Shown piece by piece: positions 1 to 59,773 of a DNA stretch of 64,000 bases. The notes beneath the pieces are model-generated. The model worked only from the letters and a program-made list of their open reading frames with translations, was not told where the DNA came from and did no database searches. The translations under genes and the position numbers were made by a program. The stretch's first letter is position 1; every line of letters starts with the position of its first letter. The stretch comes from Nitrospira sp. (GTDB lineage: Bacteria > Nitrospirota > Nitrospiria > Nitrospirales > Nitrospiraceae), in the NCBI GenBank assembly GCA_023248215.1, contig JAHFEW010000001.1, forward strand, positions 1 through 64,000, given 5' to 3'.

Positions 1-9
1 AAGCACTCA

Positions 10-137
10 CAGGATGTTCAAAAAGGCCGTCCAGCGAGGCCGCAGCGAGCGAAGAGGCAAAGCGTACTCTGCGCCGTACGTTGAGCCTCTGAGCGACGCG
101 AGAACAAAGCTGGCGGCCTTTTTCAACATCCTGCTAG
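10..137 (-). repeat. Interspersed structured element, copy E1 (short type, possibly cut off by window start)
   Basis: Minus strand reads CTAGCAGGATGTTGAAAAAGGCCGCCAGC...GCTGGACGGCCTTTTTGAACATCCTG; L and M arms are near-perfect inverted repeats; shares sequence with the six other copies. Confidence 0.85.
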
Positions 138-430
138 ATGATAGGCGGTCGCTTGTCATCGATGACCAGCATCAGTCGGCGATGTTTCAGCGGTCGATCC
201 GGATTCCGGGTATAGTGGGACAGATCTTCGGACACTTCAGTGCGACTGAGCGGCACGGAGATGCGTTGTGTGACGTGAAGCACGCGAGTCTCGATGGACA
301 GGTCCACGAGCTCCGCATTGCAGTCTGTTACTGTTGCGTTCAAGTCCTGTTCGTCACGGAAATGGACCGTGATCCGTTCTTCCGGATCAATCCATTGGCG
401 AATCTTCTCCACTTTTTCCTCATTGGTCAT
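134..430 (-). CDS. small conserved-looking hypothetical protein (MTNEEKVEKIRQWIDPEERITVHF...)
   Basis: Minus-strand ORF with plausible acidic N-terminus; its TAG stop (136-134) coincides with the edge of repeat element E1. Confidence 0.5.
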   Translation of the reverse strand: MTNEEKVEKIRQWIDPEERITVHFRDEQDLNATVTDCNAELVDLSIETRVLHVTQRISVPLSRTEVSEDLSHYTRNPDRPLKHRRLMLVIDDKRPPII

Positions 431-28859: not shown

Positions 28860-29963
28860 ATGCGTGTTGGGATCGACGCGGCTTCGATCGTAGGAGACAA
28901 GGGCGGCGTCGGCTGGCATACCTATCATCTTCTGCGAGCCTTACTGGCCTTGAACGAGGAGATCGAGTATGTCGGGTATCTCCGGCCTGGTTCCCTGCGG
29001 GCAGGCCGGCTCGATGGCTGGCCGGTGAACGATCGGATGCGTTGGGTAGAAGTGTCGCGGTGGCTGATGCCCTGGCGGGGAGCTTGGGACGGCCTTGATC
29101 TCTATCATGGCCCCAATTTCAAGATGCACACGACGGGACGGTCGGGCGGCATCGTGACCATCCATGACCTCTGGCTCGCTCGTTATCCGGAATATTCACG
29201 AAAACTATTGGGGCAAGCAGGCTCGTCTCGGCGGGCAAGGGCCACGGCGTTACGGGCACGAAAAGTCGTGACGGTCTCGGAGTTTTCCGCTCAGGAAATC
29301 GAGGGGCTGTACGGCGTTCCGCGTGAGCATCTGGTCGTCATCCATAACGGAGTGTCCGAAGATTTCTCTCCGATGCGCGACCAGCAGGCCATAGTTGAAC
29401 TGCGACAACGTTGGACGATCCCAGCGGCCGGGTTCATCCTGTTCGTCGGGGGCGCCGATCCGAGAAAGAACCATCGCGTCTTTTTGCAGGCGGTGACGCA
29501 GTCGCGTTCGCAACTGGGGGGGCGGGTCATCGTGCTCGTGGGTGACGAGGATCATCCGCAAGGGAGTTACCGGGCAACGGCGCAGGCGCTTGGTTTGGAA
29601 CAGGATGTCCGTTGTACCGGGCGTCTCGACCGCGAAGACTTGCGGCGGCTCTATTCCTTCGCCGACCTGTTTGTATTTCCTTCACGCTACGAGGGATTCG
29701 GTATGCCCATCCTGGAGGCGATGGCCTGCGGAGCGCCGACGATCACCTCGTCGACATCCTCCCTGCCGGAGGTGGCAGGAGACGCGGCATTGCTGGTGGA
29801 TCCCGACGATGTCGAGGCATTGGGAAGGGCGATGGTGACGGTATTGTCCGATCAGGACCTCCGACAGAGACTGCGACAGCGTGGATTCGAACGCGCCCGG
29901 CTCTTCACGTGGGAGCGCGCGGCATTGCGCACCAGTGCCCTGTATCGTGAACTCTGTGCCTAG
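28860..29963 (+). CDS. Glycosyltransferase family 4
   Basis: MRVGIDAASIVGDKGGVGWHTYHLL...FVFPSRYEGFGMPILEAMACGAPTITSSTSSLPEVAGDAALLVDP; TAG stop is the edge of element E2. Confidence 0.9.
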   Translation: MRVGIDAASIVGDKGGVGWHTYHLLRALLALNEEIEYVGYLRPGSLRAGRLDGWPVNDRMRWVEVSRWLMPWRGAWDGLDLYHGPNFKMHTTGRSGGIVTIHDLWLARYPEYSRKLLGQAGSSRRARATALRARKVVTVSEFSAQEIEGLYGVPREHLVVIHNGVSEDFSPMRDQQAIVELRQRWTIPAAGFILFVGGADPRKNHRVFLQAVTQSRSQLGGRVIVLVGDEDHPQGSYRATAQALGLEQDVRCTGRLDREDLRRLYSFADLFVFPSRYEGFGMPILEAMACGAPTITSSTSSLPEVAGDAALLVDPDDVEALGRAMVTVLSDQDLRQRLRQRGFERARLFTWERAALRTSALYRELCA

Positions 29964-30168
29964 CAGGCTGTTGAAAAAGCCCGCCAGCATCGTTCTCGCA
30001 TCGCTCAGAGGCTCACCGTACGGCACAGAGTACGATTCGCCTCTTCGCTTGCTGCGGCCTTGCTGGACGGCCTTTTTGAACAGCCTGCAGGCTATTCTGT
30101 TCCCGTGTGCGACTCCCTGCGGTTCTGTAGTTCAGGGGTGTGGGAGTAGTTTTTCAACAACCTGCTAG
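29960..30168 (+). repeat. Interspersed structured element, copy E2 (short type, complete L-M-R, CTAG both sides)
   Basis: CTAGCAGGCTGTTGAAAAAGCCCGCCAGC...GCTGGACGGCCTTTTTGAACAGCCTGCAGG...GTAGTTTTTCAACAACCTGCTAG. Confidence 0.9.
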
Positions 30169-30181
30169 GGACGACGGCACG

Positions 30182-31225
30182 ATGAATCTGCAGAATATCC
30201 TGGTCATCAAGTTGCGGCACATCGGCGACGTGCTTCTCTCGACACCTGTCTTGCGTGCGTTGCGAGAGGCCTTTCCCGACGCGCGACTGACCATGCTGGT
30301 CAACCGCGGGACGGAAGGGGTGCTTGCGCACAATCCGGATGTGAACGAAGTGTTGTGTGTCGAGAAGGGCACCTGGGAGGCCCAATTAAAGTTTGTGCGC
30401 ATGCTTCGACGGCGCGCGTTCGATTGCGTTATCGATCTGACTGACGGCGATCGATCGGCGGCCATCAGTCTGACGACGAGTGCGCCCGTCCGTGTGGGAT
30501 TCAATGCCGAACATCGCTGGCGAGGGTTGTTGTATAGCGCCGTGGCGAAACCGCGTCCGACGGACCGGCATCGAGTGGATTATGATCTCTGCGCCCTCCG
30601 GAACCTGGGCCTCGATCCGAAACCAGGCACTCCCGTCGTGCATGTGTCGCAGGCGGAGGAAGAGGTGGTGGAGACCTGGTTGCACGATGCCGGTCTGCTT
30701 TCATCGCGGAATTCTCCATTGTTGGTTTTGCTGCAGCCCGGGGCGCGATATTCACTGAAAATCTGGCCGCTTGAACGGTTCGCTGAATTGGCCGATCGTC
30801 TCGCCGACCGGTTTTCCTGTCGGATTCTCTTGGGCGGCGATCAACGGGAACGCGAGATCGCCGAGCAGATCGCCCGCAAGACGCGCTGTGCGCCCAAGGT
30901 GGTGGCGGGAAAATTTTCTCTGCTGCAATTTGCCTCGTTGGCAAAACGGTGCGCGTTGTTCGTCGGGAACGACGGCGGCGCCATGCACATCGCGGCGGCG
31001 ATGGGGACACCGGTGGTGGCGCTCTTCGGCCCGACCTATCCGCAGCGGTGGGGACCACGCGGTGGACCGGCGCAGGTGATCTACAAGGGCCTGGATTGTC
31101 GTGCCTGTTACCATCCGACCTGCTTGCGCGGCGACGACAGTTGCATGCAGCAAATCACTGTGGATGAAGTGTTTGAGGCGGCCAGCCGGATGCTGGAGCG
31201 CACGATTGCAGGGGCTGGGGCATGA
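30182..31225 (+). CDS. Glycosyltransferase family 9 (heptosyltransferase-like)
   Basis: NILVIKLRHIGDVLLSTPVLRALREAFPDARLTMLVNRGTEGVL...FVGNDGGAMHIAAAMGTPVVALFGPTYP. Confidence 0.9.
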   Translation: MNLQNILVIKLRHIGDVLLSTPVLRALREAFPDARLTMLVNRGTEGVLAHNPDVNEVLCVEKGTWEAQLKFVRMLRRRAFDCVIDLTDGDRSAAISLTTSAPVRVGFNAEHRWRGLLYSAVAKPRPTDRHRVDYDLCALRNLGLDPKPGTPVVHVSQAEEEVVETWLHDAGLLSSRNSPLLVLLQPGARYSLKIWPLERFAELADRLADRFSCRILLGGDQREREIAEQIARKTRCAPKVVAGKFSLLQFASLAKRCALFVGNDGGAMHIAAAMGTPVVALFGPTYPQRWGPRGGPAQVIYKGLDCRACYHPTCLRGDDSCMQQITVDEVFEAASRMLERTIAGAGA

Positions 31226-32121
31226 GCGACGAACTGGTGAGCGTGGTGATTCCTGTCTACAACGGTGCGCCGTTTGTCGCGAAGGCCGTGGCGAGTGTGC
31301 GGGCGCAGAAGCACCGCACGGTGGAAATACTGGTGGTCGACGATGGATCGACCGATGGGACGCAGGACGTCTTGAAGCGCCTCGAGCAGAGCGACGGAAT
31401 CCGATGGTTTCAGCGTAGCCATGGGGGGCCGGCGCGCTCTCGGAATTATGGCATCGAAGCAGCACAGGGACAATTCATTGCGCTGTTGGATTGTGACGAC
31501 CAGTGGTTGCCCGGAAAACTCGCCGCCCAGTTGGCGCTCATGCATCAACGGCCTGACGTGGGGCTGGTCCATACGGATTTCGAGGTGCGGTTTGAAGACG
31601 GGACCTTGGAAGAGCGCGTGTCGGCGCGGTCGAGCCGTGAGCCGATGGTCCAGGCGTTTGCCGGCGGCCACGTTGCCCTTCCCTCCACGCTCCTGATAAG
31701 GAAAACGGCACTGGACCAGGTCGGTGGCTTGGATCCGGAACTCTACGGGTCGGAGGATTCCGACCTGACCATCCGGCTGTTTCGGGTCACCGCCTTCGAG
31801 TGTATCGATCAGGTGCTGGTGCACAAACTGCAGCGGGGCCATGGTTATCGGGATATGGCCTTTGATGAACAGACGCATCGAGAGCGCGTGCTTGCCAGCC
31901 GGGATCGTTTTCTCATGCGCCTCGAAGGGTTTGCTCCGCTGACGGCGGCCCAACGGGCGGCATTGGATCGCGAATGGGCGAACTACTTTCTGTTGAAAGG
32001 CGCGGCGGCTGAGCGGGTAGGCCGGCGGAGCGAGGCACGGCGACAGTATCGGGAAGCGATTCGCAAGGCGCCGTTACGGATTCGATGTTATACTCGCTGG
32101 CTCCGTACCTTGAAGCCCTAA
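31222..32121 (+). CDS. Glycosyltransferase family 2
   Basis: VSVVIPVYNGAPFVAKAVASVRAQKHRTVEILVVDDGSTDGTQDVL; TAA stop is the edge of element E3. Confidence 0.9.
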   Translation: MSDELVSVVIPVYNGAPFVAKAVASVRAQKHRTVEILVVDDGSTDGTQDVLKRLEQSDGIRWFQRSHGGPARSRNYGIEAAQGQFIALLDCDDQWLPGKLAAQLALMHQRPDVGLVHTDFEVRFEDGTLEERVSARSSREPMVQAFAGGHVALPSTLLIRKTALDQVGGLDPELYGSEDSDLTIRLFRVTAFECIDQVLVHKLQRGHGYRDMAFDEQTHRERVLASRDRFLMRLEGFAPLTAAQRAALDREWANYFLLKGAAAERVGRRSEARRQYREAIRKAPLRIRCYTRWLRTLKP

Positions 32122-32327
32122 CAGGAGGCTGAAACAGTCCGCCGGCTTCGTGCTCGACACCTGTGAAGCGTGAAGCGTATCTCGTCAGAGACCGCGGCCG
32201 CGCTGCCCCGAGAGACGAACGACGTTTCACGAACGACGGGTGAAGGGGCCGCCTTTTTGAGCCTCCCGTGGCGTGTGGAACATCGAGTTCTTAGAGGCGC
32301 CGAAATAGTTTTTCCGCAGTCTGCTGT
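32118..32327 (+). repeat. Interspersed structured element, copy E3 (diverged loop, degenerate R)
   Basis: CTAACAGGAGGCTGAAACAGTCCGCCGGC...GGGGCCGCCTTTTTGAGCCTCCCG...ATAGTTTTTCCGCAGTCTGCTG. Confidence 0.75.
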
Positions 32328-34360: not shown

Positions 34361-34600
34361 GCAGGATGCTCAAAAAGGCCGTCCAGCAAGGCCGCAGCGA
34401 GGTGCGCGACGCGATGAATAAAGAGCGTCACGTTTGCGCACGCCGACGAAGTGGTGAGCCGGCAGTGTCTTGGGCCGAGGCGTCACGTTCTTACCCGCCC
34501 ACCCTGAGCCTGCCGGGACAGGCTCTTCTCCCATGGGGGTACGTGGAGCCTCTGAGAGAAGCGAGAACGCTGCTGGCGGACTTTTTCAGCATCCTGTTAA
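34361..34600 (-). repeat. Interspersed structured element, copy E4 (long-loop type, minus orientation, R not identified)
   Basis: Minus strand TTAACAGGATGCTGAAAAAGTCCGCCAGC...GAGCCTGTCCCGGCAGGCTC...GTGCGCAAACGTGACGC...GCGTCGCGCAC...GGCCTTTTTGAGCATCCTG. Confidence 0.85.
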
Positions 34601-34846
34601 AGCGCTCAATCGGTAACACAGGTATGCGGTTCAGTCAACACGTCCGGTTGCTCAGCCAGCTTGAAAGCGTTCCTGTCGATCTCCTCGCCCGCCTTGACTT
34701 GCCGGATGCGCTGTGGTTCCATCGCTTCGAATCCTGTGCGCCAGATTGTTCGTGATATCGTACCATCCAACAGTTCGTAGCCCTGTCCGGGCGGGGCAAG
34801 TGAGCACTCGGGATTCCGCCGCCGTGGTGCATTCCAGCGCAACATT

Positions 34847-35929
34847 GTGAAGATCGTTATCGCCGCGTGGCATCTCAAGAATCCCAACGTCGGGCTCGGG
34901 CGGTATGCTCGGGAATTGATCGATGCCTTGGGGCGCCTCGATCGCACGAATCAGTATGAGATTCTGCTTCCCTGCGCGGAGCATCCGTTCACCGCACAGC
35001 CGAATATGCGGTATCGCGTGGTCCGGTTTCCGCTGTTCCGCCGGCGTGTCTGGGAGCAGGTTGCGCCGCTGTTGGTCGGTCCCTACGACGTGCTGCATTT
35101 TCCTTACGATTCTTGCGTGGCCTGGAAGCGTGGGAAGTTTGTCACGACCATCCACGACGTCAAGCCGTTGCTGTTCCCGGAGCTCCGCGCCCATACGAAC
35201 ATGAACCGTCGAATCGAGCAGTGGGTGGTCGGGGATCGATGGAAGACGATCGACCATGTGATCACCATCTCCGAGCATTCGCGGCAGGATCTCCTTCGGC
35301 ATGTGCCGCTCCGTTCCGACCAGGTGACGGTGACTCCACTCGGCCTCGACGCCGAGCGGTTTCGGCCCGGCGATGGTTGCCGGGAAGGAAGACCCTACGT
35401 GTTCTGCGTCGCCGGGTCCGATCCGACCAAGAACGTCGGCTGTCTTGTCGAAGCATTTGCAAAGTTGCCCGAGACGCTTCGCGGTCGGTTCGATCTCCTA
35501 CTGGCCGGAGATGTGTGCAAACGAGTAGACATTCGAACGGCCATCGATCGCCTGGGCATCGGCGCACAGACCAAGCTGGTCGGAGTGGTGTCCGACGCGG
35601 AGTTGGTCGCCTATTACCAGCAGGCCACAGTGTTTGTCTTTCCTTCGCTGTATGAAGGGTTCGGTCTCCCCGTGTTAGAGGCGATGGGGTGCGGTTGCCC
35701 GGTGATCTGTTCGAACGCGTCCTCGTTGCCCGAGGTCGCTGGCGACGCCGCCTTGCTGATCGATCCGCGCCAGAGCGAGCAGTTGGCAGGAGAACTGGCT
35801 CGCCTGCTCGAGTCTCAGTCTCTGCAGGCCACGCTGAGGGGGCGCGGGTTGGCCAGAGCGAAAGAGTTTGCGTGGGATCGAACAGCAAGGCAAACGATGG
35901 CTGCCTACGAGCGGACCGTTGGACAGTGA
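34847..35929 (+). CDS. Glycosyltransferase family 4
   Basis: KIVIAAWHLKNPNVGLGRYARELIDALGRLDRTNQYEILLP...FVFPSLYEGFGLPVLEAMGCGCPVICSNASSLPEVAGDAALLIDP. Confidence 0.9.
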   Translation: MKIVIAAWHLKNPNVGLGRYARELIDALGRLDRTNQYEILLPCAEHPFTAQPNMRYRVVRFPLFRRRVWEQVAPLLVGPYDVLHFPYDSCVAWKRGKFVTTIHDVKPLLFPELRAHTNMNRRIEQWVVGDRWKTIDHVITISEHSRQDLLRHVPLRSDQVTVTPLGLDAERFRPGDGCREGRPYVFCVAGSDPTKNVGCLVEAFAKLPETLRGRFDLLLAGDVCKRVDIRTAIDRLGIGAQTKLVGVVSDAELVAYYQQATVFVFPSLYEGFGLPVLEAMGCGCPVICSNASSLPEVAGDAALLIDPRQSEQLAGELARLLESQSLQATLRGRGLARAKEFAWDRTARQTMAAYERTVGQ

Positions 35930-36114: not shown

Positions 36115-36323
36115 CTAGCAGGCTGCGGAAAAACTCGATTGTTGCGTAATACGCCGCGATCAGCTCACGTGCCGTGTCGGTGTCAGAATAGCCCGCAGGA
36201 TGCGCAAAAAGGCCGTCCAGCAAGGCCGCAGCGAGCGAAGAGGCGAATCGTACTCTCTGCCGTACGTTGAGCGTCTGAGCGATGCGAGAACGCCGCTGGC
36301 GGACTTTTTCCGCATCCTGCTAG
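36115..36323 (-). repeat. Interspersed structured element, copy E5 (short type, complete L-M-R, CTAG both sides, minus orientation)
   Basis: Minus strand CTAGCAGGATGCGGAAAAAGTCCGCCAGC...GGACGGCCTTTTTGCGCATCCTGCGGG...GAGTTTTTCCGCAGCCTGCTAG. Confidence 0.9.
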
Positions 36324-43242: not shown

Positions 43243-45141
43243 ATGTGTGGTCTAGTCGGGGCCCTGGTCTTCGATGGTGGCTCGTTCCGCCTCTCTGAGC
43301 CATACCTGACCCGGATGCGAGACAGCATGGTCCATCGGGGTCCGGACGGGGCGGGGTTGTGGATAGGGCCTGGTGGTCGGATTGGGCTGGGACATCGGCG
43401 GCTCTCGATCATTGACCTGTCTGAAGCGGCTCGCCAACCGATGGCCAATGAGGATGAAACCCTCTGGGTGGCCTTCAATGGCGAGATATATAACCACGCG
43501 GCGATCAGGCGTGAGTTAGAGGCCCTCGGCGGACATCGCTGGAGGACCGACCACTCGGATACCGAAGTGATCCTCCATGCCTTTGAGACGTGGGGCATCG
43601 ATTGTCTGTCGAGGTTTCGCGGGATGTTTGCGATCGCACTCTGGGATGTGCGTTGCCAAGAGTTGTGGCTGATTCGTGACCGCATCGGGGTGAAGCCCCT
43701 GTATTACAGCCTGCACCATGGGCGACTGACCTTCGCCTCCGAGATCAAGGCGTTGCTGCAGGACCCGGAGCAACCGAAGGCGCTGCACGAGGAATCGCTC
43801 TTCCACTACCTCTCGTTTCTTACGACCCCGGCCCCGCAGACCCTGTTCGACGGAATTCAAAAACTTCCCGGCGGCACCTGGCTGCGCGTGCGCGCGGATG
43901 GGACGATGGAAGAACGTCGTTACTGGGATGTGTGGGAGCAGACCTCTCCCCTGATCGGACAATCGGATGCGGAGATCGCAGCCAGAGTGTTGGAGCAATT
44001 ACGGGAGTCGGTCGCGCTTCGCAAGGTGAGCGATGTGCCGGTCGGTGTGTTTTTGTCAGGCGGCATCGACTCCAGCACCAACGCGGTCTTGTTCTCGCAG
44101 GGCGAGACCCGACCGGTCAACACGTTTACGATCGGGTACGACGGCGAATATCCGAGTTATCGCAATGAACTCGACTATGCCCGCTTGATGGCCGACAAGG
44201 TCGGCGCGAACCATCATGAACGCCTGTTGTCGGTGGAGGATCTCATTGCATTCTTGCCGCGCATGGTCGCGTTGCAGGATGAGCCGATCGCCGATCCGGT
44301 CTGTGTCCCGGTTTATTATGTCTCTCAACTGGCGCGTGACCATGGCGTGATCGTCTGCCAGGTCGGCGAAGGCGCCGACGAACTGTTCTGGGGCTATCCT
44401 GGCTGGAAGACATTTCGGAGGCTGGAGCGATGGAACCAGTGGCCGATTCCATCCTTCGCAAAGCAGCTCGGGCTCAGGGCTCTGCAAGGAGTCGGCGAAG
44501 GGGAGACGTTTCACTATGAACGGTTGCGGCGCGGGGCGCTCAAGCAGCCGATCTTTTGGGGCGGTGCGGAAGCCTTTCCGGAAGCCCTGAAACAGCGTCT
44601 CTTGTCTCCTCGCTTGCAGCGAAGGTTTCGAGGCCTGACGTCCTGGGAAGCCATCCGGCCAATTCATGAACGGTTTCAGGCGAAAGCCTGGGAAAAGGGA
44701 CCGCTCCAATGGATGAGTTACCTTGATCTGAACTTCCGACTCCCCGAGCTGTTGTTGATGCGGGTGGACAAAATGAGTATGGGCGCGAGTCTGGAGGCCA
44801 GGGTTCCGTTTCTCGACCACGAGTTCGTACAATTGGCGATGAGCATTCCGGAGGCCGTCAAAACCAGAGGCGGGGTCCTCAAGACGGTCCTCAAGCAAGC
44901 GGTGCGCGGGGTGATTCCGGACGCCGTGATCGATCGGCCGAAACAGGGGTTTGGCGTGCCGGTGCATGAATGGATGCAGGATCGGCTCGGAACGCTGATG
45001 CAGGAAACGCTCTCTGAGTTTTGCGACAGGACGGACATCTTGGATAAGACCGCAGTCCTGCATTTGGTTCGGGAACAGCGCGATCCTCGCAGCTGGTATC
45101 TCTTTAATCTCGCGTTGTGGTGGAAGGAGTATCTTGCGTAG
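43243..45141 (+). CDS. asnB: Asparagine synthase (glutamine-hydrolysing)
   Basis: MCGLVGALVFDGG...MVHRGPDGAGLWIGPGGRIGLGHRRLSIIDLSEAARQPM...VFLSGGIDSSTNAVL; TAG stop is the edge of element E6. Confidence 0.95.
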   Translation: MCGLVGALVFDGGSFRLSEPYLTRMRDSMVHRGPDGAGLWIGPGGRIGLGHRRLSIIDLSEAARQPMANEDETLWVAFNGEIYNHAAIRRELEALGGHRWRTDHSDTEVILHAFETWGIDCLSRFRGMFAIALWDVRCQELWLIRDRIGVKPLYYSLHHGRLTFASEIKALLQDPEQPKALHEESLFHYLSFLTTPAPQTLFDGIQKLPGGTWLRVRADGTMEERRYWDVWEQTSPLIGQSDAEIAARVLEQLRESVALRKVSDVPVGVFLSGGIDSSTNAVLFSQGETRPVNTFTIGYDGEYPSYRNELDYARLMADKVGANHHERLLSVEDLIAFLPRMVALQDEPIADPVCVPVYYVSQLARDHGVIVCQVGEGADELFWGYPGWKTFRRLERWNQWPIPSFAKQLGLRALQGVGEGETFHYERLRRGALKQPIFWGGAEAFPEALKQRLLSPRLQRRFRGLTSWEAIRPIHERFQAKAWEKGPLQWMSYLDLNFRLPELLLMRVDKMSMGASLEARVPFLDHEFVQLAMSIPEAVKTRGGVLKTVLKQAVRGVIPDAVIDRPKQGFGVPVHEWMQDRLGTLMQETLSEFCDRTDILDKTAVLHLVREQRDPRSWYLFNLALWWKEYLA

Positions 45142-45380
45142 CAGGATGCTGAAAAAATCCGCCAGCTTCGTTCTCGCCTCGTTCAGACCCTCAACGTACC
45201 CCCCATGGGAAAAGAGCCTGTCTCGGCAGGCGTGGGGCGGGCGGGTAAGAACGTCACGCCTCGGCTCAAGACACTGCCGGCTCACCGTCTCGCCGGCGTC
45301 CACACACGTGGCGCTCATTATTCTTCGCGCCGTGGACCTCGCTGCGGCCTTGCTGGGCGGCCTTTTTGAGCCTCCTGCGG
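45138..45380 (+). repeat. Interspersed structured element, copy E6 (long-loop type, R not clear)
   Basis: GTAGCAGGATGCTGAAAAAATCCGCCAGC...GAGCCTGTCTCGGCAGGC...GTCCACACACGTGGCGC...GCGCCGTGGAC...GGCCTTTTTGAGCCTCCTGCGGG. Confidence 0.87.
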
Positions 45381-45456
45381 GATCGTCTGCCATGGCTACA
45401 GCCTCCGCGGGATGCTCGATGACCTGTTGTGACGGTCTCTTCATGGTCAGTGTAGG

Positions 45457-47574
45457 ATGAGCAGCGATTCCCCCATCGATTTTTCCGAACGTATTCGGTC
45501 GAAGATCCGGAGCGTGGGCCTGAGCGCCACCCTTCGCATGGGAGTCCGTAAAGCCTTGCGACCGTTGCTCTCCCGGTGGCATCGCCAGCAAGTCACCCGA
45601 CATCCCTACCTGGTGGGTAGGAAAGAATTGGCGATTGCGTTGGGCACGTCTCCTGAGGAAGTCCTCTCGGTAGTGGCTCGGATGAGGGACGAACTCACCG
45701 GCCGCCTGCCGGTCGCGCCCGGTGATGTACCGGCGATTCGTTCTCTCTATCAACAACGGGTGCCCGGTCTTCTGGAAGCGACGATCGAATCAGCCGGCCA
45801 TGTCTGCAACCATGTGTTCGATCTTCTGGGATCCGGTCCAATGGCATTGGGAGGTACGATCGATTGGCACCGGGACTTCAAAAGCGGCTACCGGTGGAAT
45901 TCCGACCTCTGTTTCTTGGACATTCCTCACGGCCAAGGGAACGGCGTCGATATCAAGGTTCCATGGGAGTTGTCCCGGGGGCACCACCTGGTCCTTCTGG
46001 CACAGACGGCGCTGCTGACTGGAGAAACGAAATATTCCGGCGAATGTGTCGCGCAGATGACGAATTGGATCGCAGCCAATCCACCCGGACATGGGGTCAA
46101 CTGGGCCTGCCCAATGGACGTTGCGATTCGCGCCGTCAATTGGTTGTGGGCGCTGGCTCTTGTGGCGGAGCCGTCGGTTGTGAACGACGCCTGGTTGGCA
46201 GAGGTCCTGGCCATGTTGGTCGCGCATGGCCGGTATCTTATGGCGAATCTGGAAGTCCGCGACGACGGAGTGACGACTAATCACTACCTGGCGGATGTCG
46301 TGGGGTTGCTCTACCTCGGACTCTGTCTGAAAGAAGTGCGCGAAGCCAAGCGATGGCAGGCCTTTGCCGTTCGCGAGTTGGTGCGTGAAATGGATCGGCA
46401 GGTGCTCCCCGATGGCGTGCATTACGAGTCGAGCCTGTCCTATCACCGCCTGGTGACTGAAATGTTTCTGTCTTCGGCGGTGCTCTGCCGGCACCATGGG
46501 GTGGACTTGCCCCATGCCTTTCACAATCGTTTGGCGAAGATGTGTGACTTTGTGCAGGGCTATACGAAACCGAACGGACTAGCTCCACAAATCGGGGATG
46601 GAGACAACGGTCGCTTGCATATCCTGACCGGTTATGGCCGATGCGACGTGCGGGACCACCGCCATCTGCTTGCCGTCGGCGGAATGTTCTATGATCGTGC
46701 GGACTGGCTCGCTGCGGCAGGGCCTTCATGGGTCGAGGGGCTGTGGTTCGGCGGGGCGCGCCATTCGGTGCGGAAGGGGGCGGCAGAGACTGTCGCGCCG
46801 CAGCCCCGGAGCGTGGCGTTTCCGGATGGTGGATTCTACATCCTGCGCGAGCAGAAAGATTATGTCTTGTTCAACTGTAATCCGCCCGGTAGCAGCGGAC
46901 TGGGAACCCATAAACATAACGACTTGCTCTCGCTGGAAATGCAGCTCGGGGGGGAAGATATTCTTGTGGATTCGGGTTGTTTTCTCTATACTTCCGATCC
47001 GCAGGCCTATAATCGATTCCGTCGCACTACCTCCCACTCGACAGTCACGGTGGATCAGGCAGAGCAGAACCGTTTGATTCCCGGAAAACTCTTTTGTCTG
47101 CATCCGGATAGCCGGTTGCATGTGCTGCAATGGGAGACCGGTCGATCGGTCGAACAGGTGACGGCGGAACATGATGGATACGGACGGCTTTCCGACCCGG
47201 TCCGGCACCGGCGTGATGTGCGGTACCACCGGTCGAACGGTTCGTGGCAGGTGAGCGATCATCTATCGAGTCCCGTGAGCCGATCTCTCTCCCATCGTCT
47301 GGAATGGACCTTGACGTTTGCCCCCCATTGCTCGCTGCATCCTGCCGGAACCGGATGGCATGTGGTGACTCCCACCCAGCGTCTATGGCTGGAAGGTCCG
47401 CGGTTGTCCGCGGGTGGCCGGTCCCTGGCCGTTCATCCACAGGTCGATCAGGAGGAGATGGCGCTCCAGTACGGAGTGAAATGCCCGGCTCCCTTCTTGC
47501 GCTGGAGTTGGGAGGGGCCTCTCCCCGTGGAAGGAACTTTCACGATTTCTCGCCTGGGTTCACGTTCTACATGA
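45457..47574 (+). CDS. Heparinase II/III family protein
   Basis: IDWHRDFKSGYRWNSDLCFLDIPHGQGNGVDIKVPWELSRGHHLVLLAQTALLTGE...GLGTHKHNDLLSLEMQLGGEDILVDSGCFLYTSDPQAYNRFRRTTSHSTVTVD. Confidence 0.9.
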   Translation: MSSDSPIDFSERIRSKIRSVGLSATLRMGVRKALRPLLSRWHRQQVTRHPYLVGRKELAIALGTSPEEVLSVVARMRDELTGRLPVAPGDVPAIRSLYQQRVPGLLEATIESAGHVCNHVFDLLGSGPMALGGTIDWHRDFKSGYRWNSDLCFLDIPHGQGNGVDIKVPWELSRGHHLVLLAQTALLTGETKYSGECVAQMTNWIAANPPGHGVNWACPMDVAIRAVNWLWALALVAEPSVVNDAWLAEVLAMLVAHGRYLMANLEVRDDGVTTNHYLADVVGLLYLGLCLKEVREAKRWQAFAVRELVREMDRQVLPDGVHYESSLSYHRLVTEMFLSSAVLCRHHGVDLPHAFHNRLAKMCDFVQGYTKPNGLAPQIGDGDNGRLHILTGYGRCDVRDHRHLLAVGGMFYDRADWLAAAGPSWVEGLWFGGARHSVRKGAAETVAPQPRSVAFPDGGFYILREQKDYVLFNCNPPGSSGLGTHKHNDLLSLEMQLGGEDILVDSGCFLYTSDPQAYNRFRRTTSHSTVTVDQAEQNRLIPGKLFCLHPDSRLHVLQWETGRSVEQVTAEHDGYGRLSDPVRHRRDVRYHRSNGSWQVSDHLSSPVSRSLSHRLEWTLTFAPHCSLHPAGTGWHVVTPTQRLWLEGPRLSAGGRSLAVHPQVDQEEMALQYGVKCPAPFLRWSWEGPLPVEGTFTISRLGSRST

Positions 47575-57268: not shown

Positions 57269-58307
57269 GATCACACCGATTCAGATCGGCCCCTATCGCA
57301 TCGGACCCGACCATTCCCCGCTGGTAATTGCCGAGGCGGCGGTGAACCATCAGGGCGATTTTGAGACGGCCAAGCGCATGGTTTATATCGCCCATGCCAT
57401 GGGAGCCCACATCATCAAGTTTCAGATTCATGTGTTGGACAATGAGATGCTCCGCGACACGCCGCAATCCGCCAATTTCGCCGAGCCGCTCTATGTCACG
57501 CTGGATAAGACGAATCTCTCCGTCGATCAACATCGTGAACTGAAGCGGCTCTGTGAGTCGTTGGGCATTCTGTATCTCTGCACGCCGTTCAGCCGGGTGG
57601 GAGCCGATATCCTCGAAGAACTCGGGGTGGTGGCCTACAAGACCGGGTCCGGTGAATTGACCAATCTGCCGCTGATCGAACATATCGGACGGAAGGGGAA
57701 ACCCATGATCGTCTCGACCGGCATGTGCACGATCGAGGAGGTTGGAGAAACGGTCGCGCTGTTGCGAAAGTTGAACACCCCGTTCGCCTTGACCCATTGC
57801 GTGTCCGCCTATCCGACTCCTTATGACCGGGTCAATCTGGGCATGATCGGAAAATATCGAGATCTCTTTTCCGTTCCCGTCGGTCTGTCCGACCATTCAC
57901 GCGGGATCTATACGGCGATCGGGGCCGTGGCGCTCGGTGCCTGCGTCGTGGAGAAGCACTTTACGTTGGACCGACAACAGCAGGGACCGGATCATCCGGT
58001 GTCGATCGAACCGGATGAGTTGAGTGAGTTGGTCACGGGGGTGGATGCCGTGTTTCGAGCGCGAGGGGCCGATCGTGAGATTTTTCCGGAAGAGCGAGAG
58101 ATCGTGGCCTGGGCGCGTGAGAGCGTCGTCTCCGAGGTGGCGATTCCGCGCGGCAGCGTGATCACCAAGGAGATGGTCTGGGTGAAACGACCGAGCCCAG
58201 GCCCCGGTGTCGTCGCGGCAAAGGACCTTGGAAAGGTCATCGGCAAAGTGGCGCAGGTAGATATTCCTAAAGACAGCCAGATTCGCTGGGAGCAGTTGAA
58301 CGCATGA
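57261..58307 (+). CDS. neuB: N-acetylneuraminate synthase family protein
   Basis: PLVIAEAAVNHQGDFETAKRMVYIAHAMGAHIIKFQIH...STGMCTIEEVGETVALL...VGLSDHSRGIYTAIGAVALGACVVEKHFTLDR; SAF-like C-terminus. Confidence 0.9.
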   Translation: MAEITPIQIGPYRIGPDHSPLVIAEAAVNHQGDFETAKRMVYIAHAMGAHIIKFQIHVLDNEMLRDTPQSANFAEPLYVTLDKTNLSVDQHRELKRLCESLGILYLCTPFSRVGADILEELGVVAYKTGSGELTNLPLIEHIGRKGKPMIVSTGMCTIEEVGETVALLRKLNTPFALTHCVSAYPTPYDRVNLGMIGKYRDLFSVPVGLSDHSRGIYTAIGAVALGACVVEKHFTLDRQQQGPDHPVSIEPDELSELVTGVDAVFRARGADREIFPEEREIVAWARESVVSEVAIPRGSVITKEMVWVKRPSPGPGVVAAKDLGKVIGKVAQVDIPKDSQIRWEQLNA

Positions 58308-59455
58308 AGCCGCGCAAGATCGCCGTCGTAACCGAAGCCCGGGCCACCTACGGCTATATCAAGCGGGTGATGCAACTCATCGAGCGGTCCGAGCGGCTGG
58401 AACTTCAGCTCATCGTGACCGGCATGCACCTGTTGAAGGAATACGGTTCGTCGATCGATGAGATCCTGAGGGACGGGTTCAAACCGGCGGCGCGTGTGGA
58501 GATGTACGTGGGAGGGGATACGCCGACGGCCTGGTCGAAATCGCTCGGTGTCGAAATGCAGGGGCTCGCGCAGGTCTTCGACATGTTGAAGCCGGATCTG
58601 CTCCTGGTGGCAGGAGACCGGGCGGAGATACTGGCAGCGACCGTGACGGCCGCCTATATGAACATCCCCATCGCCCACATTCAGTCCGGAGACCTCTCCG
58701 GCCACATCGACGGCTCCGCCCGCCATGCCATCACGAAGCTCGCGCACATCCATTTGCCGGCCTGTGAAGATTCCGCCGAGCGGGTGCGAAAAATGGGCGA
58801 GGAGTCCTGGCGGATCTTCAACGTCGGTGCTCCACAACTCGATGATGTCGTGCACGGCAAAAAAATGGCGCGTGCGGAGTTGTCCAAGATGTTCGGGGTG
58901 GATTTCGACAAGCCGGTCCTGCTGGTGATCCTGCATCCGGTGCTGGCGGAAGTGCATCTGGCCAGAGCACAAATGGAAGAGACGCTGGCTGCCGTGAAGG
59001 ACAGCGGGCATCCAGCGCTGGTAATTTATCCCAATGTGGATGCGGCCGGGCAGGAAATCATCAGCGTCATTCGACAATATGAAAGTGTCCCGGCCATCAA
59101 GACGTTCCGGAATCTCGACCGGGAGGTATTTCTGAGTTTGTTGACCGCCGTCTCGGTCCTCATCGGGAACTCCAGCGTCGGCATTCTCGAAGCGCCGTCT
59201 TTCAAACTGCCGGCGTTGGATATCGGCAGTCGCCAGACGGGACGCATGCGGGCCTGCAATGTGATCACGGTTCCGGAATTCGACCGGCGACTGATCGGGC
59301 AGGCGATCGAGCAGGCGCTCCATGGCAGCCGGTTCAGGACGATGCTGCAGACCTGTGAGAATCCCTATGGTGATGGCAACAGTTCGGAACGGATCTGTCG
59401 AGTCCTGGAAGAGGTCGATCTCGGCAAGCTTCTCAACAAACAGATGACCTATTAG
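58304..59455 (+). CDS. neuC: UDP-N-acetylglucosamine 2-epimerase (hydrolysing), NeuC-like
   Basis: KIAVVTEARATYGYIKRVMQLIERSERLELQLIVTGMHLLKEYGSS...LVAGDRAEILAATVTAAYMNIPIAHIQSGDLSGHIDGSARHAITKLAHIHLP; TAG stop is the edge of element E7. Confidence 0.9.
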   Translation: MKPRKIAVVTEARATYGYIKRVMQLIERSERLELQLIVTGMHLLKEYGSSIDEILRDGFKPAARVEMYVGGDTPTAWSKSLGVEMQGLAQVFDMLKPDLLLVAGDRAEILAATVTAAYMNIPIAHIQSGDLSGHIDGSARHAITKLAHIHLPACEDSAERVRKMGEESWRIFNVGAPQLDDVVHGKKMARAELSKMFGVDFDKPVLLVILHPVLAEVHLARAQMEETLAAVKDSGHPALVIYPNVDAAGQEIISVIRQYESVPAIKTFRNLDREVFLSLLTAVSVLIGNSSVGILEAPSFKLPALDIGSRQTGRMRACNVITVPEFDRRLIGQAIEQALHGSRFRTMLQTCENPYGDGNSSERICRVLEEVDLGKLLNKQMTY

Positions 59456-59773
59456 CAGGATGTTGAAAAAGTCCGCCAGCGTTGTTCTCGCATCGCTCAG
59501 AGTCTCACCGTACGGCCCACGGGAAAAGAGCCTGTCTGGGCAGGCTCGGGGCGGGTGGGTAAGATGATGTGGCTTCGCCTCCAAGACACTGCCGGCTCAC
59601 CGTCTCGCCGGCGTCCACACACGTGGCGCTCATTATGCTTCGCGCCGTGGACCTCGCGGCGGCCGCGCTGGACGGCCTTTTTGACCATCCTGCGGGCTCT
59701 CTCAATGTCGTCTCCGACTCCGCACCATTTGTATTTTTGGAGGTGGCGAAATGGTTTTTCAACAGCCTGTTAG
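59452..59773 (+). repeat. Interspersed structured element, copy E7 (long-loop type, complete L-M-R, TTAG both sides)
   Basis: TTAGCAGGATGTTGAAAAAGTCCGCCAGC...GAGCCTGTCTGGGCAGGCTC...GTCCACACACGTGGCGC...GCGCCGTGGAC...GGACGGCCTTTTTGACCATCCTGCGGG...GGTTTTTCAACAGCCTGTTAG. Confidence 0.92.

Follow-up and report, generated by a model that had tools for sequence, protein, structure and literature searches.

The closest described case to the repeats analyzed here is MITEPsy1 of Pseudomonas syringae, a putative IS5-family MITE that is related to ISPsy2 and was shown to transpose (PMC3189936). The IS5 element of E. coli targets the sequence 'Py-T-A-Pu', with CTAG accounting for 15, CTAA for 3 and TTAG for 3 of 24 sites (PMC5493358). 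The window, by which we mean the whole 64,000-nucleotide stretch of Nitrospira sp. DNA that was analyzed, contains seven copies (E1 to E7) of a repeat that begins with CAGG directly behind a TAR trinucleotide. What might explain why this TAR is so often the stop codon of a gene? With a probability of about 0.93, the repeats are non-autonomous MITEs of an IS5-family insertion sequence (IS) of Nitrospira, residing in YTAR targets. We re-read the seven copies of the window, with genes called by a genome-trained codon model:

E1, positions 1 to 133, minus strand: a MITE copy truncated where the contig begins, so that its left part is present and its right end not judgeable.
E1 edge, CTAG at 134 to 137, minus strand: contains the stop (134 to 136) of a hypothetical ORF at 134 to 430, minus strand.
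E2 left target-site duplication, 29960 to 29963, plus strand: CTAG, its TAG (29961 to 29963) being the stop of the GT4 glycosyltransferase gene at 28860 to 29963.
E2, 29964 to 30164, plus strand: complete 201-bp MITE, with the L end at 29964, M ending at about 30088 and the R end at 30164.
E2 right target-site duplication, 30165 to 30168, plus strand: CTAG.
E3, 32122 to 32323, plus strand: old, degenerate copy with right edge CTGT.
E3 left edge, CTAA at 32118 to 32121, plus strand: its TAA (32119 to 32121) is the stop of the GT2 glycosyltransferase gene at 31222 to 32121.
E4, 34361 to 34596, minus strand: L-M part with edge TTAA at 34597 to 34600; no R end recognized; at no gene stop.
E5, 36119 to 36319, minus strand: complete 201-bp young copy with CTAG on both sides; not at a stop.
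E6, 45142 to 45378, plus strand: L-M part, R end not recognized.
E6 edge, GTAG at 45138 to 45141, plus strand: its TAG (45139 to 45141) is the stop of the asparagine synthase gene at 43243 to 45141.
E7, 59456 to 59769, plus strand: 314-bp copy with TTAG on both sides (59452 to 59455 and 59770 to 59773).
E7 left TTAG, 59452 to 59455, plus strand: contains the stop (59453 to 59455) of the UDP-GlcNAc 2-epimerase gene at 58304 to 59455.

The original prediction, that the TAR before CAGG is the in-frame stop of a co-oriented neighbor in five of the seven copies, was borne out with its coordinates for E1, E2, E3, E6 and E7. Removal of E2 or E7 does rejoin an operon junction as proposed, with identical 4-bp repeats at both ends (CTAG and TTAG, respectively) and flanks that rejoin. 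The elements do target and duplicate YTAR, as had been read from their edges, but the edge of E6 is GTAG and falls outside the motif. The TAA of E4, which had been read as in frame with an ORF at 34606-34947(-), is not the stop of that ORF: this TAA (34597-34599) lies 9 nt past the ORF's stop, and no gene was called there.

A complete young copy of the MITE is 200-201 bp long. It opens with the L end, CAGGATG(C/T)(G/T)GAAAAAG.CCGCCAGC, continues with an internal inverted copy, M (GCTGGACGGCCTTTTTG..CATCCTGC), and after a further ~75 bp reaches the R end, GTTTTTC..CAGCCTG. The ends CAGGNTGNNGAAAAA are inverted at both sides and no transposase gene lies within the element; in larger copies, of 234-374 bp, additional sequence separates L from M. 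The window's genome holds approximately 100 copies, its end-motif matches numbering 206 compared with 3 for a reversed-pattern control. Young copies are 99-100% identical inside the main subfamily, and six of them, including E5, are identical across their full length. The family is attributed to Nitrospira from its matches to 114 stretches of public genomes, almost all labeled Nitrospira or Nitrospirota and a few Nitrospinota. It goes unmentioned in the literature searched, a silence that is no proof of its being undescribed. Both the MITE family, which is genus-wide in Nitrospira, and its partner of the IS5 family can now be named, and masking is advisable in gene calling. At 45134-45460(+) of the window and in other copies, open frames extend from the L end (MLKKSA..) and can be expected to enter annotations as spurious hypothetical proteins.

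Which element might move a repeat that has no transposase gene of its own? Between the end pairs of the first loci examined there was no autonomous element, and an IS701-type transposase (PF13546), considered as the mover, was absent from the window's genome. The partner was found through PF01609 in a sister genome: an autonomous IS, 1314-1317 bp long in sister genomes, with CAGGCTGCGGAAAAAC at both ends, identical to the MITE R end over 16 bp. Only the terminal ~16-18 bp are common to MITE and IS. A 1316-bp copy stands between TTAG and TTAG in one sister genome (G023), and further full copies stand between CTAG and CTAG, two in a second genome (G001) and one in a third (G019), giving four copies with duplications altogether. 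The 342-aa transposase contains the domains DUF772 (PF05598) and DDE_Tnp_1 (PF01609) and scores 278.9 bits against the NCBIfam IS5 model NF033581, whose cut-off is 140; the partner thus belongs to the IS5 family by its transposase and also by its 4-bp YTAR duplications (TTAG/TTAG, CTAG/CTAG). Among more distant relatives (~43% identity) the ends are related and the duplications mostly of the same kind. Together with the matching target spectrum of E. coli IS5 (PMC5493358) and the similar ends and duplications of the mobile MITEPsy1 (PMC3189936), these findings make the assignment of this IS as partner of the MITE well supported, and its transposase would then have mobilized the MITE in trans. 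No intact partner copy was found in the window's own assembly, where a transposase relative (on contig C183) is decayed, with 62% identity and 3 stops; the intact partner may have been lost from this genome or may be collapsed in the draft.

Identical tetranucleotides stand on both sides of 34 of the 70 two-ended copies in the window's genome. Identical YTAR flanks are found in 20 of 24 young two-ended copies versus 10 of 29 old ones, as expected of duplications that decay. Among 78 non-redundant insertions with identical duplications, the target was CTAG in 55, CTAA in 13, TTAG in 9 and TTAA in 1, and the base adjoining the YTAR target was only slightly biased. At two loci of the window's genome, at or near contig ends (L164 and L224, contigs C21 and C179), an element that starts with GGGTCTGTTCACAA lies immediately on the CTAG of a MITE end, and it is probably a second insertion sequence that uses the CTAG target.

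Clean empty sites in sister species were found for E2, E3, E7 and many other copies when the joined flanks were searched in 40 relatives and the junctions aligned. The E7 site is empty in 6 species (ancestral GACCTATTAGAGG..ATG), for example as GACCTATTAGAGGCTCGGATTTTTATGAATGCT, where the stop is intact and TTAG occurs once. The E2 site is empty in 10 species, in the best match of which the GT4 gene has its stop, here TGA, at the same codon. For the E3 site, at least 8 sister species have the gene pair joined without the element. Many further copies give the same picture of empty sites in sister species; the E5 junction is less clean in relatives, lying in a diverged intergenic stretch. The original claim that the upstream gene owes its stop to the element edge does not survive this comparison. 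At every locus checked where the junction aligned well, element-free sister genes already terminate at the same codon or nearly so; the stop therefore predates the insertion, and the element is not its source. In one sister genome (locus L284 of G016), the stop matching that of a MITE copy elsewhere (L219) is followed by CAGGATGATGAAAAAGCTCG, which is L-end-like, the rest of the element being absent; this stretch is perhaps a relic of the same insertion. The repeats combine a short length (within 50-600 bp), terminal inverted repeats, target-site duplications, empty sites and an autonomous element with the same ends, as is characteristic of MITEs.

The overlap with stops exceeds chance. In the stretches around all 123 end motifs found in the window's genome, on which the statistics are based, stops make up 14% of non-coding YTAR sites, and against this random-site null, which the original prediction had proposed as the yardstick, 29 of 70 two-ended copies lie at stops (p ~1e-8). 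The figures are 17 of 37 against 19% for copies of relatives selected by their R end (p ~2e-4), and 12 of 40 against 19% in other Nitrospirota selected by the L end at 80 loci (p ~0.07); copies with identical duplications lie at stops in 11 of 34, 7 of 21 and 12 of 23 cases. Few copies are found inside genes or in divergent spacers; YTAR sites are commoner in coding than in non-coding sequence, and divergent spacers hold about one fifth of the non-coding sites. Within a spacer the stop was chosen in 17 of 27 cases versus 11.9 expected from the spacer's other YTAR sites (P ~0.035). Because this preference is marginal, most of the genome-wide excess can be attributed to survivors in short spacers, tandem or convergent, that often offer no YTAR besides the stop. 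YTAR targeting combined with loss of harmful insertions, the latter being our inferred cause of the excess, fits the data without dedicated stop-codon targeting.

In the mechanism that we propose, transposase supplied in trans by a full-length IS would recognize the ends CAGGNTGNNGAAAAA, and the YTAR target, mostly CTAG, would be cut with a 4-bp stagger, the filling of the gaps duplicating the four bases. Approximately one gene in five ends in YTAR. Where a stop was the target, the 4-bp duplication rebuilds it: the stop codon would be copied to both sides, so that the protein is unchanged and the element comes to lie in the 3' untranslated region. Selection would remove insertions within genes, and probably those in promoters, and the survivors would be enriched at stops and at other gene-neutral YTAR sites. 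The proposal that survival of a copy requires a rebuilt stop goes too far, as about 60% of copies lie in spacers away from any stop. A striking pattern would be explained with no new mechanism, since a target tetranucleotide that contains TAG or TAA often hits stops and its duplication makes the hit harmless.

Could the element have been co-opted, with a stable L-M hairpin behind the stop ending or protecting the transcript, so that L-first copies behind genes are kept? This is the strongest of the alternatives, although an improbable one. In tandem spacers, the ratio of copies co-oriented with the genes to opposite ones is 43:15 (p ~3e-4) among decayed copies without a recognizable R end, whereas it is 26:22 among young copies with identical duplications. 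In 120 of 139 copies the L and M arms match each other at two variable positions, versus 43 expected by independence; both the orientation and the covariation counts assume independent copies, an assumption that related copies violate. For the L-M stretch of E2 the folding energy is -62.5 kcal/mol (z -5.9), but the opposite strand folds equally well or better (z -7.0). The E2 region has the long L-M hairpin but no match to the intrinsic terminator pattern of a short GC-rich hairpin and T run, and an Rfam scan gave no match to the element. Moreover, copies lie within a co-directional run of glycosyltransferase genes, where a terminator would be harmful. The left:right asymmetry at stops, 23:6 in the window's genome, is partly ascertainment, as right ends decay beyond recognition, and it fades to 10:7 in the R-selected copies of relatives, which are thus without polarity. 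The L-M matching may stem from a few subfamily founders or from arm conversion. Functional placement at gene ends, which the original prediction had offered as an option, finds little backing: a stop is scarcely favored over the other YTAR sites of its spacer, and the orientation bias of decayed copies is the sole hint. This bias and the L-M covariation are nevertheless unexplained by targeting and purifying selection alone; the hairpin could have a role at gene 3' ends, the alternatives being subfamily founder effects and uneven end detection. That the hairpin behind stops now functions as a 3'-end element for the upstream gene, and that copies are kept for this reason, is somewhat less likely still. 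If true, a selfish IS5-type MITE would supply mRNA ends throughout the genus.

Active targeting of stop codons or gene 3' ends by the transposase or a partner is considerably less plausible. A stop overlap 2-3 times the YTAR null and the use of the stop in 17 of 27 spacers that offer a choice would agree with it, but the within-spacer preference is marginal, the majority of copies lie away from stops, the target preference scarcely extends past four bases, and the full-length IS copies are at stops in 2 of 11 cases, near the null. In one case (L347:2667, in G001) a full-length partner IS occupies the TAG stop of a gene whose product has repeated PPPPPP-rich linkers, and so the overlap with stops is not limited to the MITE. 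It is very hard to maintain that the element edge truncates genes and makes new stops, as the in-frame TAG or TAA at the left edge might suggest, for this is refuted at the tested loci by sister genes that have the same or nearly the same end codon without the element. Repeats of the REP/REPIN type moved by a RAYT tyrosine transposase would likewise be palindromic, intergenic and of high copy number, but the chance of this is negligible, as REP/BIME elements are recognized by lack of a target duplication and by short palindromes tied to a Y1 transposase, whereas here the 4-bp duplications, not known to us for REP/RAYT elements, are clean and the ends are common to a DDE (IS5-family) element.

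Reading the repeats as MITEs of an IS5-family element places them among several known systems. The E. coli IS5 element has a terminal sequence that differs from that of the Nitrospira element and, unlike the MITE, it is autonomous. It resembles the Nitrospira MITE and IS in its YTAR target, in CTAG as the commonest site and in its transposase family (PMC5493358). The likeness to MITEPsy1 is closer: it is short and non-autonomous, has 18-nt ends containing CTGAAAAAGCC, makes a 4-bp CTAG or YTAA duplication and has an autonomous partner of the IS5 family (PMC3189936). It is 100 bp long and present in few copies, compared with 200-314 bp and about 100 copies for the Nitrospira MITE, and the accessible part of its description mentions neither an internal third copy of the end nor an excess at stop codons (PMC3189936). 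QMITE1 and QMITE2 of Coxiella burnetii have another sequence, and the accessible portion of that report describes no IS5-family link or YTAR duplication for them (PMC5896051). The consequence for the host genes is reminiscent of the Nitrospira copies at stops, for the Coxiella MITEs share a few bases with the 3' ends of functional genes, the proteins being of normal size (PMC5896051).
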